Of a stretch of DNA of 40,713 nucleotides, positions 10,095 to 16,524 are shown piece after piece. The stretch spans positions 1 through 40,713 of the forward strand of contig JAEULQ010000010.1 in NCBI GenBank assembly GCA_016792685.1, in the 5' to 3' direction. The notes under the pieces were generated by a model. The model was given only the letters and a program-made list of their open reading frames with translations, had not been told where the DNA came from and did no database searches. This stretch comes from Tabrizicola sp. (lineage in GTDB: Bacteria; Pseudomonadota; Alphaproteobacteria; Rhodobacterales; Rhodobacteraceae). The translations under genes and the position numbers were made by a program. Numbering within the stretch: position 1 is the first letter of the stretch; each line of letters begins with the position of its first letter.

Positions 10095-11308
10095 TCGGAG
10101 CCCAGCGGTTCGGGAACCAGACCGGCCCGGGTGTCGCGGTCGAAGACGCGGGTGACGTCGCAGATCAGTTCGGCCAAATCGTCGATATCGGCGGCACCGT
10201 GATCGGCTGTCAGCTGGATCCTCCACCGCGGGGCATGGCCGGGTACGATGGGCGCCAGCAGAAGCGGGACCTGCGGACCGGCGCTGGCCAGAAGCCGGGT
10301 CCGGGCTTCGGCCGTCTGCAGCGGCAGGCGCACTGGCACCAGCGGCGAGACCTGGCCCATGACGCGCAGGCCGTCCGACATCAGGCGATTTCGCAGGCGC
10401 AGCGCGCAGCCATGCAGGCGACGACGACGGCGGCGGCCCTCGGGGCTGTCGACAAGGTCAAGGGCGGTCTGGATCACCGTGGCGTTGACCGGCGAAAGCG
10501 CTGCCCGATGCTTCTGGCCCGGGCGCAGGGCGTCGGCCAGTGCCGGATCCCGCAGGGCGACAAATCCACCGGTGGCCGCAAAGGTCTTGGCGAAGCTGCC
10601 GAGCACGACGTCGACCCGGCCAAGGCAACCCTGAAGCTCCAGAACGCCACGACCTTCCTGGCCGAGGGCGCCAAGGTCATGCGAGACATCGGCGATGAGA
10701 ACCGCCCCATGCTGCCGCGCAAGCTGGGTGAGTTCGGCCAGGTCGGCCATGCGCGAGCCATGGGCCGAAATCGCCGGCACCGCGATGAAGATCCGGCCCC
10801 GGTGCTGCTGCCGACCAAGCCGGGACAGTCGACGTTCCAGTCCTTCGAGTGACCCGGAGGGGCAGCGGTGCGGTCTGGCACCTGCGGCGATAGTGGTCTC
10901 GAACATTGCGGGATGGGCGCCGGCGTCGATGATCACGTCGTCCTGCGGGTGGAAGAGGCCAAGCAAGGTCGCGCAAATGGCATCGGTGCCGGAAGGAAAC
11001 ACCAGGGCAGCCGGAAGCTGCAGGAAGGCGGCGATCCTGGCTTGCAGCGCAAGGGCCGGGGCGCTGGGCGACGAGGCGGGATGGCTTTGGCCCAGAGCGG
11101 CAAGGACAGCGGAGCGTATCGCCGGATGGCTGGCGAGGGCGAGGTAATCCTGCGCGGTGAAGTCCAACCCAGGGCGTGGAAGGGCTCGGGCGGGTTCCGG
11201 GAAGGCGGACAGGAACGGCACGGCGTTTTCCGACAGACCGGGACGGGCGTGATTTGGGTGCTGGGCAACTCCGTCGGGGGACGAAATGGTCCGGGCGGGG
11301 CGGGGCAT
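10091..11308 (-). CDS. Alpha-oxoamine-synthase-like PLP enzyme, substrate unknown
   Basis: A 405-residue fold-type I PLP enzyme resembling the family of 8-amino-7-oxononanoate synthase, 5-aminolevulinate synthase and serine palmitoyltransferase. The start is the ATG at 11306-11308 with AGAGGT upstream; a longer open frame has no support. Family landmarks are the [11 protein letters not shown] segment, [14 protein letters not shown] (the usual NHAS block), the cofactor Asp in [17 protein letters not shown] (in place of DEAHS/TG), and the Schiff-base lysine in [15 protein letters not shown]. The canonical Glu-Ala between Asp and His is Val-Ser here, so the substrate may differ. No biotin or tetrapyrrole gene is adjacent. 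The acyl-CoA:amino-acid condensation is inferred from the family. Confidence 0.7.
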
Positions 11309-11503
11309 GGTGTGACCTCTTGCTGGGCCCCGATGCGCATTTGGGGCATCAAGGAGCCGTTGGCGGGCTTGGTCAGAACCTGCGCAGCGAGGGGGAAAAA
11401 TGCGCGTTAATTCCCCGTGAAAACCGCGAAACCGTCGCTGGCACCCCGCGAAATGCGGAAAACTCTGTGCCATGCTGCCGGAAATCGGCAGGGAGTCGCG
11501 GCC

Positions 11504-13501
11504 ATGACGCAATGGAAAGAGGTCACCTCGGGGCTGGAGCATGGGGGCTATGTCGCCTGGGAAGCGGCCGTCGACGCGGCGCTTGGCCATCTGGGGCATG
11601 ATCATGTGCCGCTGTTCGTAAAGCTTTCCCCACCGACCGGGATGACGCTGCTGCAGGCCATCGACCAGACCCTGGCACTGCCGGGACTGCGTCTCAGCCG
11701 ACATGAGCACGACCTCATGGCGACCGAACGCGCGCTTGTTGCGGCCGGAGGGACGCAGGAGATCCGGCTGGTGGTCTTCTGGAAGCGGGCGGATCTGGGC
11801 AGCCTGCCCGGCTTCTGGAAGGTGTTGCAGGTCGGCCCGGCGCTGTCGATCGCCGAGGATCAGGCATCGGCGCAGGGTACGGATCTGGTGACCCTGGCCG
11901 GGGATCTGGACCGGAACGTGCCGCTTGTGGCGGTGATCGACGACGGGATCGGTTATCTCAACGCCCGTTTCCGCAGGTCGCGGGATGAGACCCGAATCCG
12001 GGCGGTCTGGCTGCAGTCAACCGAGCGCGAAGGTGCGGCCGGGGGCGTGCTGAATGGCTGCGTCCTGGGTCAGGCCGAGATCGACAAGATGCTGGCTGAT
12101 GGCGGCGACGAGGTGGCACAGTACCGCGCCAGGAATAGGTCGCTCTTTCCCATGCCCGATGGGGTGCTGACCGACCGACATGTCGCGCATGGCACGCATG
12201 TGTTGGACCTTGCAGCAGGCGCGGCGCCCTGGGCAGGAGACGAGCTTTCGCGCTTGCCAATCCTCGCGGTCCAGTTGCCACCGGCCAGCATCCGCGAGAC
12301 GTCGGGGCGGCGGATGGAAACCCATCTGGTACAGGGCCTGCGCTGGATCCTGTCCGAGGTGCTGCGTCAGGCGGATCACAGCGATGTGCCGCCCGTCATC
12401 GTCAACATCAGCCTTGGGTCACTGGCCGGCCCCGGGGATCGTCATGCCTTCCTGGCGGACTGGCTGGCTTATGAGGTCGCCCGGCACGCCCGGGTCACCG
12501 GGGGCGGAGAGATCCGGCTGGTCGTGGCCTATGGCAATTCGCGGCTAGGTCGCCTGGTCGCGCGTGGCGAACTGCGCCAGTCGCAGGCAATGAAACTGAT
12601 CTGGCGGGTGCAGCCGGACGATCACAGCTCGAGTTTCCTTGAGCTGCGGGCCGACCAGAGCCAGGTTGCAGGGCTGAGCCTTCGGCTGAAGCCGCCGGAA
12701 GGTTCGGGTCTGCCGGGCCTGGACATCCCCTGGCCGGTGGCGGGCAAGGGCTGGCGTTTGCCCGGACCGATTGCCGCCGTGACCGCCAGCCACGAGGACG
12801 GAGGCCAGTCGCATGTGCATCTGGCGCTGGGCCCGACAGCCGGGACAGGCCCGATGCCTGCGGCGCCGTCCGGGGCCTGGCTGATCGAGGTCAGGACCGA
12901 AATGATCGAGCCGGTCCGGGTGACGGCGCGGGTGCAGCGAGATGATACGCCTCCGGGCTATCCGACGCTGGGGCGGCAAAGCTGGCTTGACCATCCGTTG
13001 GCCTGGGACTGGGATCCCGATCAGCGTGGCTTCCTTGCGCCGCGCCTGGCGCAGGATGCTCCGGGTTGCCCGGTTACCCGCGAGGGCAGCTTTGTCGCTT
13101 TTGCGGGCGCGGATGACCCGCGCATCCTGTTCGTCGGTGCCGGCCGGCCGGTGACGGGCCGACGCGGAGAGCTGCAGGCGACGGCCTATTCGTCCGAAGG
13201 TGTCCAGCATTTCGCCCGTCCAGGCGAATCGCGTGGCCCGACACTGATGGCGCAAGGTGACGGTGGTGTCCTGCTGCGCGGGATGCGGGCGACCGGTGTT
13301 CCAAGTGGATCGGTGGTCAGGATGTCGGGAACCAGCGTTGCGGCCCCGCAGGTGACGCGCGCGCTGGCCCGGTATTTCCTGACCGTTCCAGAAGGCGCAC
13401 GGACACCGGAAAAGGAGCGTCAGTTCCTGACCGGAACGCCGAACTGGACCACGATCGACCCGCGCGAAGGCTATGGCACCCTGATCGCCACGGGGTCGTG
13501 A
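11504..13501 (+). CDS. Subtilase (S8) family serine peptidase without signal peptide
   Basis: A 665-residue subtilisin-fold protease with a complete catalytic set: Asp146 in VAVIDDGIG, His229 in HVAHGTHVLDL, the oxyanion-hole Asn345 in VVAYGNS, and Ser611 in RMSGTSVAAPQV. The about 265 residues between Asn and Ser far exceed subtilisin's, implying an inserted beta-rich domain (about 370-560). The N-terminal 135 residues are not a signal peptide or an obvious propeptide, so the protein looks cytoplasmic. The start is the ATG at 11504 with GGGAG eight bases upstream. It converges on the PAP2-fold gene, with a perfect hairpin between them. The local cluster of protease, PAP2-like protein and regulator looks accessory. 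Substrate is unknown. Confidence 0.8.
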   Translation: MTQWKEVTSGLEHGGYVAWEAAVDAALGHLGHDHVPLFVKLSPPTGMTLLQAIDQTLALPGLRLSRHEHDLMATERALVAAGGTQEIRLVVFWKRADLGSLPGFWKVLQVGPALSIAEDQASAQGTDLVTLAGDLDRNVPLVAVIDDGIGYLNARFRRSRDETRIRAVWLQSTEREGAAGGVLNGCVLGQAEIDKMLADGGDEVAQYRARNRSLFPMPDGVLTDRHVAHGTHVLDLAAGAAPWAGDELSRLPILAVQLPPASIRETSGRRMETHLVQGLRWILSEVLRQADHSDVPPVIVNISLGSLAGPGDRHAFLADWLAYEVARHARVTGGGEIRLVVAYGNSRLGRLVARGELRQSQAMKLIWRVQPDDHSSSFLELRADQSQVAGLSLRLKPPEGSGLPGLDIPWPVAGKGWRLPGPIAAVTASHEDGGQSHVHLALGPTAGTGPMPAAPSGAWLIEVRTEMIEPVRVTARVQRDDTPPGYPTLGRQSWLDHPLAWDWDPDQRGFLAPRLAQDAPGCPVTREGSFVAFAGADDPRILFVGAGRPVTGRRGELQATAYSSEGVQHFARPGESRGPTLMAQGDGGVLLRGMRATGVPSGSVVRMSGTSVAAPQVTRALARYFLTVPEGARTPEKERQFLTGTPNWTTIDPREGYGTLIATGS

Positions 13502-13576: not shown

Positions 13577-14731
13577 CTATCGCCATTCCGCCAGCGCTGC
13601 ACGCCAAAGCGGCGGCAGAACGTGCCAGTCCTTCGCTTCGGCGACCGTGGTGGTCCCGGCGTCCCAGTTCTCGCCGCCCGAACCATGCAGCGCCGCGCAC
13701 CACTTGCGCAGGGTGAAGTCGCCCGACCAGGCATTGGCATCGGCTTTCCATTCCCGCACGGCATGGTCGGACCCGCCACCCAGGCAGTGGCTGATAAAGG
13801 CCAGTGCGATCGAATGGCCAAGAAGCCCGCCATGCGCAGAGTCGACCGGATAATGCACCCCGGCCACGGTGCGGTTGTCGGCGATACGGGCCGCGAGGCG
13901 GAACAGAAGGATGACGGGATCGGTGACCGGCGCGGACTCGCTGGCGGGGGCCAGCTTTTCGTGCAGCGTCGCCACCAGCTTTGCCGGAGGTACACCGTCG
14001 GCATAGAGCCGGAAAGCGGCAAGCAGAGTGGCAAATGCAAAGGCCTCGGTCGCGTGGCCCGAGGGGTAAGCGGAATGGCCGGGAGTGGAAATCACCGGCT
14101 GGATCTGCGGCGAAAGGTCGACCGGTCGGCGGACCGAGCAGAGATGCTTCATCCGCTGTTCCTGTGCAACAACAGTGTCATGCAGTGCGGCCAGAAGCTG
14201 GGCGGTATGGGGCCGCCGTATCGCTCCGATTGGCATTTGAGCGGCAAAGAAACCAGTGAAATCCTCGGCCTGGGCCAGGATTTCGCCCAAGCGGTCGGCC
14301 CGCAAATCCATCGCGGCGCGCAGCTCCGGCATCTGTGCGGCAATGGTTTCCGAGGTCGGAGGCGTCAAGCTGATAAGGTCGCTTTCGGTGCGCACGAGCT
14401 TGGCCGGATCCGCCCCGGGTCGGACCGAGAAGAGCGACATGCCTTCATAGGCCAGCACCGAAGCCCGAGGATAGGCGTCAAGGCGCATTAGGCGCTGCAG
14501 TTCGTCTCCTGTCGTGGCCGGAGGGACGGGAACCGTGCCGTCCCAGAACCCCATCAGCGCTTCGGCAGTCTGGCCCAAGGCCGCTGCGCTTGCCGGAGAA
14601 GCGCCGCTGCCATGAATTCCATGAATTCCATGAATTCCGTGGATTCCGTGAATCCCGTGGATTCCGTGAATCCCATGAATCCCGTGGATTCCGTGGATCC
14701 CGTGGATCCCGCTTGTTGCGAGAATCGACAT
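13577..14731 (-). CDS. PAP2/vanadium-haloperoxidase-fold protein with an N-terminal (Gly-Ile-His)11 repeat
   Basis: A 384-residue protein starting MSILATS, with a strong GGGAGG five bases before the ATG at 14729-14731. Residues 8-40 are eleven exact Gly-Ile-His triplets. From about residue 90 the protein follows the PAP2/vanadium-dependent haloperoxidase signature in full: Lys195-X6-Arg202-Pro, Pro-Ser-Gly-His at 223-226, and Arg287-X5-His293-X3-Asp297, the residues that hold phosphate or vanadate with the catalytic histidine. No signal peptide is seen. It could be an acid phosphatase or a haloperoxidase; the signature does not decide. It is divergent from the SARP-like regulator, which probably controls it, and convergent with the subtilase. 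The histidine-rich leader is unusual for the family and might bind metal. Confidence 0.82.
   Translation of the reverse strand: MSILATSGIHGIHGIHGIHGIHGIHGIHGIHGIHGIHGIHGSGASPASAAALGQTAEALMGFWDGTVPVPPATTGDELQRLMRLDAYPRASVLAYEGMSLFSVRPGADPAKLVRTESDLISLTPPTSETIAAQMPELRAAMDLRADRLGEILAQAEDFTGFFAAQMPIGAIRRPHTAQLLAALHDTVVAQEQRMKHLCSVRRPVDLSPQIQPVISTPGHSAYPSGHATEAFAFATLLAAFRLYADGVPPAKLVATLHEKLAPASESAPVTDPVILLFRLAARIADNRTVAGVHYPVDSAHGGLLGHSIALAFISHCLGGGSDHAVREWKADANAWSGDFTLRKWCAALHGSGGENWDAGTTTVAEAKDWHVLPPLWRAALAEWR
14612..14710 (-). repeat. Eleven tandem 9-bp units encoding Gly-Ile-His
   Basis: Eleven head-to-tail 9-bp units on the minus strand read GGR-ATY-CAY. Units differ only at third codon positions (GGG/GGA, ATC/ATT, CAC/CAT), so every copy encodes the same tripeptide. 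Because the unit is three codons, copy-number changes would not shift the frame. Confidence 0.95.
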
Positions 14732-14769
14732 CAAACCCTCCCTTTTCAATCGACAAATCGTGCATCGGA

Positions 14770-14785
14770 TTTGCCATTTGGCAAA
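14770..14785. promoter_or_regulatory. Perfect palindrome in the divergent promoter of the PAP2-fold gene and its regulator
   Basis: TTTGCCA-TT-TGGCAAA is a perfect 7-bp inverted repeat with a 2-bp spacer, 39 bp upstream of the PAP2-fold start and 120 bp before the regulator start. A second palindrome, TCAATTGA, lies at 14808-14815. Either may be an operator. Binding by the adjacent regulator is an inference. Confidence 0.5.
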
Positions 14786-14904
14786 GTCCGCTTGCGGGTG
14801 CTTGGTATCAATTGACGCAGAATTCACGGTCTCGGCAGCCGCCAAGGAGTGTTGCACGAGCGTTCTCAACCGCTTAGCGTGGCGGCCGGGGACAGGGGAA
14901 GGTC

Positions 14905-16524
14905 ATGTTTATCCGCCTGGTTGGGGTTTTCGAAATCAAGGATGATGCCGGGCGCGACCGTACGCCGCGTGGCGCGAAAGCACGCGCGATCCTGGCGATG
15001 CTTTGCCAGACCCCGGATCGACGCCGGGCAAGGCGCTGGCTAGAAGCCCGGCTCTGGTCCGATCGGGGCGCTGAACAGGCCAGTGGCAGCCTGCGGCAGG
15101 CCCTGATGGAAATCCGCAAGGCGCTGGGACCGTATGCGGACTGGCTGCAGACTGACCGTGACACGGTGCGGCTCTCCGGGGTCACGATCGATCTGGAGCA
15201 TGACCCGGACGCTGCGGCAAAGGCCCTGCAATCAGGGAGGGAGTTCCTGGAAGGGATCGACATCATCGATCAGGCTTTCGAGGAATGGCTGCGTGAAGAG
15301 CGGTCCCGAGTTGAAGGGAAGATGGGTACGCGTCGGCCCGATCTGGCGCGGCTACCGGTTGCGCAGACTGCGCGGCTGCCATTCGTGATCCGACTTGGTG
15401 GCTTGCCCCAGGGCGTGGGCCTGTTTGCCGGGCGGGCACTTGCCGACGCGATCGGCCGCCTTGTAAGCGAGTTTGCCCATATTGATCTCTATGGCTCGGA
15501 TGGCACCACTATTCCGCCGGATCTTCCAAAGGAGGGCATGGTCCTGCAGGTCGAGGGCGCGGAAATCCAGAGTCGCGTCCATGTACTCGTCAGCTTGTCC
15601 TCGATTGCGAGTGGGCAAATCATTTGGAACCAGCGATCCGTCGTGCCGGTATCAGAGGCCGATTTCATTGGAGCAGGAGACCTACCGCCGCTGGTCTTCC
15701 AAGCAGCGGACGCGGCCCTATCCTATTTCCCGCGACTTCCTGAATGCCAGGAAGGTCCGCGCCGGGCAAATGCGCTGATCGCGGACGCGTTGGCCGCGAT
15801 GTTCACCTATGACGGCGAAAGTCTGCGGGCGGCCGACCGAATGCTTGCCGAGGCTGGAAGCATCGCAAACTCGGCTCGGATCTATGCCTGGCGGTGCCTG
15901 GTGCGGCAGATCATGGTGGTCGAGCGGACCGAGCGGGACCATAAACGCATCGAAGCGGAGATCGACGAATACTCACGCAAGGCGCTGGAGCTTTCCAAGG
16001 CCAATCCGCTTGTCCTTTCACTGGTCGGCCTCGCCCGCGTCATGATTGACGAGAATCCCGAGGCCGGCACAGTCTTGGCACGGGATGCCGTTGCACTGAG
16101 CCCTTACAACGCGCATGCATATTTCGCGCAGGCTGCTGCCCTGATCCGGCTTGAGGACAACAGCGCAGCCCTTGAGGCAGCCCGACGCGGCGCGGAAATC
16201 GCGGCCCGAACGGCGCATGTTCATTGGTTTGAGGCAATGTCGGGCCTGGCTGCAGTCCGCAGTGGCTCCTACGCAGCGGCTATCGCACACTTCGAGGCCG
16301 CACATTACCGTGCGCCCAATTTCCGCGTGGCGATGCGGCATCTGGTTTTTCTCTACCTTTGGGCCGCTGAACCCGAGAAGGCCGCCAGGGTTTACCGCGG
16401 CCTTTTGCGCGCCGAGCCCGACTTCACGCTTGAGCGCATAATGAGCGAGCCAGAGTATCCGGCCGTGACGCTGCGCCGAAGCGGCCTTCTGGAGAAATAC
16501 GGCGCGCAGATTGCCAGTCTTTAG
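14905..16524 (+). CDS. SARP-like transcriptional regulator (winged helix plus TPR)
   Basis: A 539-residue regulator. Residues 1-95 are an OmpR-type winged helix of the SARP kind: LVGVFEIKDDAG, then PRGAKARAILAMLCQTPDRR, LWSDRGAEQASGSLRQALMEIRKAL and a final beta-hairpin DRDTVRLSG. The middle (about 150-280) holds a domain like those linking DNA-binding and TPR parts in CadC- and SARP-like regulators. The C-terminal half (about 300-520) is helical with TPR-like repeats, for example NAHAYFAQAAALIRLEDNSAALEAARRG and GSYAAAIAHFEAAHYRAPNF. No receiver domain or transmembrane segment is present. The ATG follows CAGGGGAAGGTC. It is divergent from the PAP2-fold gene with palindromes between. Its stop overlaps that of the convergent reductase (TTAG). 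Confidence 0.8.
   Translation: MFIRLVGVFEIKDDAGRDRTPRGAKARAILAMLCQTPDRRRARRWLEARLWSDRGAEQASGSLRQALMEIRKALGPYADWLQTDRDTVRLSGVTIDLEHDPDAAAKALQSGREFLEGIDIIDQAFEEWLREERSRVEGKMGTRRPDLARLPVAQTARLPFVIRLGGLPQGVGLFAGRALADAIGRLVSEFAHIDLYGSDGTTIPPDLPKEGMVLQVEGAEIQSRVHVLVSLSSIASGQIIWNQRSVVPVSEADFIGAGDLPPLVFQAADAALSYFPRLPECQEGPRRANALIADALAAMFTYDGESLRAADRMLAEAGSIANSARIYAWRCLVRQIMVVERTERDHKRIEAEIDEYSRKALELSKANPLVLSLVGLARVMIDENPEAGTVLARDAVALSPYNAHAYFAQAAALIRLEDNSAALEAARRGAEIAARTAHVHWFEAMSGLAAVRSGSYAAAIAHFEAAHYRAPNFRVAMRHLVFLYLWAAEPEKAARVYRGLLRAEPDFTLERIMSEPEYPAVTLRRSGLLEKYGAQIASL

Follow-up and report, generated by a model that had tools for sequence, protein, structure and literature searches.

The window, which is the whole stretch of DNA analysed here (40,713 nucleotides; contig JAEULQ010000010.1 of the Tabrizicola sp. 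assembly GCA_016792685.1), contains a PAP2-fold enzyme gene that carries a tandem tripeptide array near its start and lies between a convergent S8 peptidase gene and a divergent regulator gene (Table 1).

Table 1. Features of the enzyme, regulator and protease locus in the window.
Feature	Positions	Strand	Basis or remark
S8 (subtilisin-type) peptidase, convergent with the PAP2 gene	11417-13501	plus	PF00082
PAP2-fold enzyme (acid phosphatase / vanadium haloperoxidase superfamily), 384 aa	13577-14731	minus	PF01569, invariant columns, structure and fold search
15 residues downstream of the array	14567-14611	minus	opposite charge tends to occur here in relatives with charged arrays
(Gly-Ile-His)11 array, PAP2 residues 8-40	14612-14710	minus	five distinct synonymous 9-mers
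Divergent intergenic region between enzyme and regulator, 173 bp	14732-14904	none	
GGGAGGG, likely ribosome-binding site, spaced 4 nt from the ATG at 14731	14736-14742	minus	read from the sequence
Regulator: winged-helix/SARP-like N-terminal part, alpha/beta segment and TPR repeats; divergent from the PAP2 gene	14905-16524	plus	

The enzyme matches PF01569 at 35.2 bits (Pfam cut-off 27.2) and retains the complete active-site pattern K-x6-RP, PSGH and R-x5-H-x3-D, which is the hallmark of the PAP2 superfamily. In alignments of 66 and 63 sequences, K195, R202, P223-S224-G225-H226, R287, H293 and D297 are invariant and P203 is nearly so. The AlphaFold model of the window protein is confident overall (mean pLDDT 87), with a pLDDT below 50 for residues 1-42, so that the array is predicted to be disordered. 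A fold search placed class A acid phosphatases at the top and haloperoxidases lower, and a sequence search matched both. No signal peptide was seen by eye.

On the minus strand, the array reads as eleven consecutive GGR-ATY-CAY units encoding (GIH)11. The sequence-only reading had stated that these eleven 9-bp units differ only synonymously and only at third codon positions, which our count bears out, as 14 codons deviate from the majority codon, all differences between units are third-position transitions, and no residue is changed. Tandem Repeats Finder scored the array at 107 with a period of 9 and at 130 with a period of 27. A two-unit GIH pattern gave ten overlapping matches in the 3.58-Mb assembly (~89% complete), all of them inside the window array and none outside it. 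Three of the ten adjacent unit pairs are identical in DNA, and the 13 adjacent codon differences compare with 16.0 (sd 2.9) after shuffling, indicating no DNA anti-repetition in the window copy. Because its neighbouring units are not unusually different, slippage in this copy has probably been recent, and the 14 codon differences would not all represent independent events. The His-Xaa-Ser system protein HxsA (NF038313) was rejected as an identity for the array, which scored 26.6 bits against a cut-off of 55 and contains no His-x-Ser, and no radical SAM match was found among the scanned window neighbours.

The regulator gave weak Pfam matches to TPR_19 and Trans_reg_C, both just under the cut-off, and its predicted structure is a TPR superhelix, for which a fold search returned TPR superhelices and the CadC periplasmic domain at the top. 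A consensus scan found no sigma-70-like promoter in the region between the enzyme and regulator genes. The S8 peptidase keeps D175, H258, S640 and N374, which are invariant columns in an alignment of 27, and no signal peptide was seen in it by eye. Two small frames (217 and 180 aa) with no Pfam match lie at positions 10199-11410 of the plus strand, flanked by a methyltransferase gene and the S8 gene; a relative of one of them lies near the module at L004, L005, L006 and L019. PADLOC 2.0.0, run for anti-phage defence on seven proteins, matched neither the enzyme nor the regulator, and only the S8 peptidase matched, to a subtilase model at 21.1 bits.

Searching genome contigs yielded 18 first relatives, a profile was built from the first members, and the family set came to 154 distinct ORFs, strain records included. 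Arrays in this family are far above chance: under a strict threshold (at least 4 copies and at least 12 residues), 147 of the 154 family ORFs carry one, against 1 of the 1874 other ORFs (stop to stop, ≥200 aa) at the same loci, and under a looser threshold (at least 2.5 copies and at least 9 residues) the counts are 150 of 154 and 5 of the 1874. The sequence-only reading, which knew of no such leader in this enzyme family, is overturned on this point, as nearly the whole examined family has one. The four family ORFs without an exact array comprise one in which it lies in another frame (L094), one cut by a contig end (L014), one that is degenerate (L148) and one with none (L190). L190 is the only module member without an array; its S8 match is spread over two open frames, and PSGH is absent; at L190:1951-4658, the array, PSGH and an intact S8 frame are all missing, as if the module decays together. 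The sole background array of at least four copies is a (DPV) tract, 53 residues long, that lies in a different open frame close to a family member (L144:7248-8501).

The position of the array is common to the relatives, usually the N-terminus, and its unit peptide differs: GTH, GVH, NVH, GAH, GNQ, GHE, NSQ, GYD, GRS, GKM, AVE, GQ, GGTH, SGAG and NSF all occur, with the His-containing GTH, GVH and NVH in the nearest relatives of the window protein. Arrays persist in members only ~30% identical to the window protein. Their length is ~30 residues, and the period ranges from 2 to 6 residues, being 3 in 107 of 135 members; for periods 2, 3 and 4, the median array length is 35, 27 and 32 residues and the median copy number 17.5, 9 and 8, array length varying somewhat with the period (Kruskal p 0.03). 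The residues most often found in units are Gly, Ala, Ser and Asn, and the unit chemistry spans GS or GGA through ENW, DAR and LQS. The GIH array exemplifies a family-wide, nearly pure short-unit array in which the repetition is kept and the unit is not.

PAP2 matches occurred in 125 of 394 sampled genomes of the host family, nearly all of different genera, and loci from 103 of the genomes with a match were read. A phylum-wide search matched 24 of 398 genomes at E ≤1e-15, 13 of them outside the host family; members outside the host family carry arrays as well, except the distant matches L240-L242, and arrays are also found in plasmid records of Rhizobium, Bosea, Microvirga, Paraburkholderia and Caballeronia. 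Among distant PAP2 proteins beside a regulator, searched over the whole protein, internal (NR)12 arrays are present in L200, L209 and L244; NK runs occur in L238 and L239, and imperfect GLG-type repeats in L243. L240, L241 and L242 have neither a regulator nor a protease match and no array anywhere in the protein, and by eye their N-termini start like those of exported acid phosphatases. Viral contigs contain 26 PAP2 relatives, at a best-segment identity of no more than 32%.

The gene setting is conserved together with the array. A regulator with a homologous C-terminal sensor half lies within 4.5 kb of the enzyme at all 147 judged loci, and an S8 peptidase lies within 2.5 kb at 140 of 143 judged loci, both counts being lenient in that a match is accepted at any flank length and a miss is scored only where both flanks reach 3.5 kb, which leaves loci such as L176, L183, L186 and L191 outside the S8 count. 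The sensor half of the regulator is kept and its output part varies among SARP-like, OmpR-type winged-helix and class III cyclase forms. Regulator identity between the window and the four GTH loci L002, L003, L004 and L006 is 78-81%. The S8 peptidase was rejected as a necessary partner, since arrays occur at loci with papain-like or A4 peptidases and no S8 match: a papain-like (C1) peptidase is the next gene at L186, L189 and L192 (Pfam, only L192 above the cut-off) and, by eye, at L183, and an A4 peptidase is found at L246 and L247. With papain-like or A4 enzymes replacing S8, the partner protease appears exchangeable. No protease was recognised by eye at L173 and L176, a deacetylase-like gene (by eye) lies just downstream at L191, and the array is kept at L191 and L173, where the S8 profile and inspection by eye recognised no adjacent protease. 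An S8-led search for array carriers other than PAP2 found none (8 of 337 genomes with a match), and two S8 matches, L264 and, close to the end of a contig, L263, lacked both a PAP2 and a regulator match. At the four papain-like loci L183, L186, L189 and L192, which may be one clade, the units are tetrapeptides that follow the pattern [ND]G[GA][LMIV]. Papain-like proteases favour a hydrophobic residue two before the cut, and the hydrophobic residue of these units, standing two before a possible cut, would suit such a protease. In Phaeobacter (L110-L120, L132), the module is carried on large plasmids, several of those read being typed conjugative, and a winged-helix regulator stands upstream of the enzyme gene.

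The peptide of the arrays is nearly invariant while its codons are not. Across 150 extended arrays (1361 units; 4273 codons), we counted 1928 synonymous and 9 residue differences from the majority codon. As the delineation of extended arrays favours purity, the count was redone with every interruption between the first and the last unit, which gave 1926 synonymous and 57 amino-acid differences (one out-of-phase span left out), against a synonymous share of 27% expected from random change. The synonymous drift under a kept peptide that had been described for the window copy thus holds family-wide. Arrays are uninterrupted in 123 of 144 cases, and 98.0% of residues lie in exact units; an orthologue in the GHT genus, L248, also has an interrupted array, and the Paracoccus locus L009 mixes GNH, GNN and GNQ units. 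Repeat-free homologues and residue changes between units, which the sequence-only reading had named as signs of neutral expansion, do exist but are rare, being confined to L190 without an array, the degenerate L148 and the 21 of 144 interrupted arrays. We conclude from these codon counts that the array peptide is under strong purifying selection.

In addition, neighbouring units are unusually dissimilar in DNA. None of the 150 arrays has all its units identical in DNA. In the 142 arrays tested for adjacency (those with fewer than 4 exact units left out), the codon difference is 0.712 between adjacent units and 0.57-0.60 at lags 2-6, and the adjacent-unit differences sum to 819.8 against 707.5 (sd 8.0) after shuffling, ~14 sd above; with one array per distinct unit, the effect is still seen at z = 10.2 (97 arrays). 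Identical adjacent DNA units number 38 of 1152, against 83.6 (sd 7.6) after shuffling. The control within the enzyme core, equal residues 3 codons apart, showed no effect (0.600 observed, 0.607 expected). Such dissimilarity is expected if a repetitive peptide must be kept without a slippage-prone DNA repeat, and the family-wide codon alternation is the pattern that would result from selection, or survivorship, against slippage. Slippage nevertheless still happens: copy number in the Phaeobacter (NSF)n arrays is 5 in one, 6 in nine and 7 in two of the 12 records read from 21 matched, in agreement with the earlier suggestion that a three-codon unit could vary in number between strains without a frameshift. 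In the tree, charge and permutation tests, 10-12 near-identical strain loci (11 Phaeobacter, 1 Rhizobium) were excluded.

On a tree of 135 members (those below 150 bits left out), there are 92 distinct units. Unit changes number at least 102, compared with 125.5 when labels are shuffled, and period changes number 10, compared with 26.9 expected, so the period is inherited, and the unit letters change freely between lineages. Sister pairs (n = 43) share the unit in 13 cases and differ in 30; in the 24 pairs that differ and have period 3, the difference involves one residue in 11, two in 11 and three in 2, and in random pairs one-residue differences make up 12%. A change of unit extends over the entire array and often alters a single residue position at each step. 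Unit sharing falls with core identity, from 46 of 48 pairs at ≥80% to 7 of 14 at 70-79%, 8 of 52 at 60-69%, 10 of 230 at 50-59% and 16 of 7651 at 30-39%, these pair counts still including pairs of strains and a small number of loci counted twice. Hydrogenophaga has both (SGGI)6 and (SGGL)6 or 8 at a core identity of 92-94%, with synonymous codons largely reshuffled in the arrays (by eye) and core four-fold sites differing by only 0.14-0.18. In the GHT genus, four orthologues keep GHT in 19, 19, 17 and 12 copies, and their paralogues within those genomes carry NAY or NSS units.

As the window array contains no D, E, K or R, the relation of array charge to the rest of the module was assessed in relatives. 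In phylogenetic contrasts over 125 loci, total array charge correlates negatively with that of the enzyme core (r = -0.29, p 0.001; partial -0.295), but not with that of the S8 peptidase or the regulator (-0.02 and 0.00). The relation resides in the first 170 post-array residues, the catalytic half giving +0.13 (p 0.09), and dropping the 5 largest contrasts reduces it to r = -0.14 (p 0.04). Next to the array, the 15 residues that follow are net negative after 11 of 11 basic arrays (mean -3.0), net positive after 8 of 10 acidic arrays (mean +1.9) and close to neutral after neutral arrays (mean -0.56, n = 123); the Mann-Whitney p is 1.2e-4 with kinship ignored, several of the 21 charged arrays being related. 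These correlations indicate that array charge is compensated in cis, by residues after the array. Among unit-core residue classes, none but charge survived contrasts (the aromatic correlation fell from a raw 0.32 to 0.05), and no clear co-variation of charge or identity was found between the unit and the protease or regulator. The post-array segment often reads HAGG or DHAGG (L034, L037, L038, L044, L079, L084, L096, L103), a possible conserved boundary between array and enzyme.

Taking these observations together, we tentatively favour, as possible but some way short of probable, a reading in which the array is a disordered low-complexity tail through which the enzyme associates with itself into assemblies or condensates. 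The array would bind other copies of the array and the segment beside it. Activation of the module would fall to the regulator, and trimming or clearance of the tail or assembly to the partner protease of whichever type (S8, papain-like or A4), whose role is a guess. Any unit would suffice provided that all copies match, because the binding partner is the same molecule, and such self-matching would explain the purity within a molecule, the differences between lineages and paralogues, and the compensation of charge in cis. A broader formulation, which we hold to be rather doubtful, is that self-similarity itself is the conserved trait, a lineage-specific homotypic code that jumps between pure units while synonymous codons prevent a DNA repeat, on the tail of an undescribed sensor-enzyme-protease module of Proteobacteria. 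Several points weigh against self-association. Identical molecules could assemble in register without all their units being alike, so strict purity is not fully explained; the compensating charge could mean solubility instead of contact; and the unit chemistry is unusually wide for one assembly mode. The mechanism may yet prove a known one.

The strongest rival of self-association, in our view unlikely, is that the array is a many-copy peptide precursor, from which the protease cuts identical peptides that the TPR regulator reads. Cytosolic peptide signals are familiar from the RRNPP systems of Gram-positives, and repeated pheromone precursors from fungi. The protease and TPR regulator genes accompany the enzyme, the protease may be of type S8, papain-like C1 or A4 as if proteolysis itself were needed, the lineage-specific units and the different units in paralogues of one genome resemble signal types, and purity is expected if every copy is a product; yet units as short and featureless as GQ, GS and GGA, the lack of an export signal by eye, the co-variation of charge with residues in cis and not with protease or regulator, and the arrays kept without a recognised adjacent protease all speak against it. 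A docking ligand or bait is less likely again: the intact array would fill the groove of the TPR regulator, or the protease, and hold it inactive until the state of the enzyme changes. Consistent with this are the homologous-sensor regulator near every judged locus, the swapping of its output part with the sensor half kept, its TPR superhelix by structure, and the lack of an array in the three PAP2 matches without a regulator. Against it, the regulator differs so little across GIH and GTH loci, does not co-vary in charge with the array, and would have to accommodate periods of 2-6 residues, which is awkward for one groove. Still more doubtful is the view of the array as a flexible bristle or spacer whose length is set and which simply tends to originate by tandem repetition. 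This would account for the prevalence of Gly, Ala, Ser and Asn, the predicted disorder and the roughly constant total length; a spacer, however, would tolerate unit substitutions, at odds with the 57 amino-acid against 1926 synonymous differences, and DAR, ENW, LQS, TPH, AVE and GKM are not spacer-like.

Two further readings are very improbable. Neutral microsatellite expansion, or a contingency locus switched by slippage in copy number, draws on the whole-unit copy differences in Phaeobacter and the identical neighbouring units in the window array, but amino-acid change is nearly absent, arrays persist in such distant members, and synonymous alternation lowers DNA repetition. Neutral expansion is therefore largely refuted and close to excluded, and a slippage contingency locus was rejected, as no array is DNA-identical throughout, adjacent identical units are rarer than in shuffled arrays, and the frame is kept, unit lengths being multiples of 3 nucleotides such that a change in copy number cannot switch it. 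A His-rich leader that binds metal or vanadate had been proposed from the 11 His in 33 residues of the window array, and the GTH, GVH and NVH units of the nearest relatives would agree with it. However, His is present in 22 of 100 distinct family units and absent from the other 78 while the active site is invariant, as in relatives with NSF, GNQ, GKM, AVE or GQ units, and this proposal is likewise close to excluded.

The regulator-enzyme-protease module is common in the host family, with a PAP2 match in about a third of the genomes sampled, and some ninety repeat peptides on one enzyme scaffold amount to a natural experiment. It could be used to ask what repetition does independently of sequence, how the unit changes across a whole array, and how genes that encode repeats avoid slippage. 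Persi, Wolf and Koonin 2016 (PMC5120217) report that repeats in proteins evolve horizontally, diverging from each other faster than from orthologues, with purifying selection strongly relaxed. The arrays described here do the opposite, in that copies within a molecule are near-identical and more distant orthologues are completely different. We found no description of the module or of such arrays in the open-access literature, and a term search of PMC8195603 and PMC7159879 found no haloperoxidase, PAP2 or tripeptide.

Known systems resemble parts of this picture. The window enzyme shares its fold and complete active-site pattern with class A acid phosphatases and vanadium haloperoxidases (PF01569), but compared with the known soluble PAP2 enzymes on fold and active site, it bears an array, has no signal peptide by eye, and is tied to a regulator and usually to a protease too. 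RRNPP systems likewise place a TPR sensor with a DNA-binding output beside a possible peptide source and a protease, whereas the present module is proteobacterial, and its regulator has TPR superhelices and the CadC periplasmic domain as its top fold matches. Hypervariable repeats of contingency loci are also tandem units whose number differs between strains; by contrast, the DNA units of the family are dissimilar, their period is a multiple of 3, and the peptide is under strong purifying selection. Collagen-like Gly-X-Y tracts occur in bacteria, and many family units are also Gly-x-x with period 3, but the arrays include periods of 2, 4, 5 and 6 and Gly-free units, and a collagen-like protein was rejected since Gly, although at every third residue in the window, is absent from 28 of the 92 distinct units on the tree. 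Low-complexity sticker-and-spacer or silk-like domains are a self-associating class, and the family arrays resemble them in short pure units such as GAGS, GGY, NSF and GNQ and in predicted disorder; unlike such domains, the family swaps its unit wholesale between genera with purity kept, and its arrays are all attached to a single type of enzyme core, the gene setting of which is conserved.
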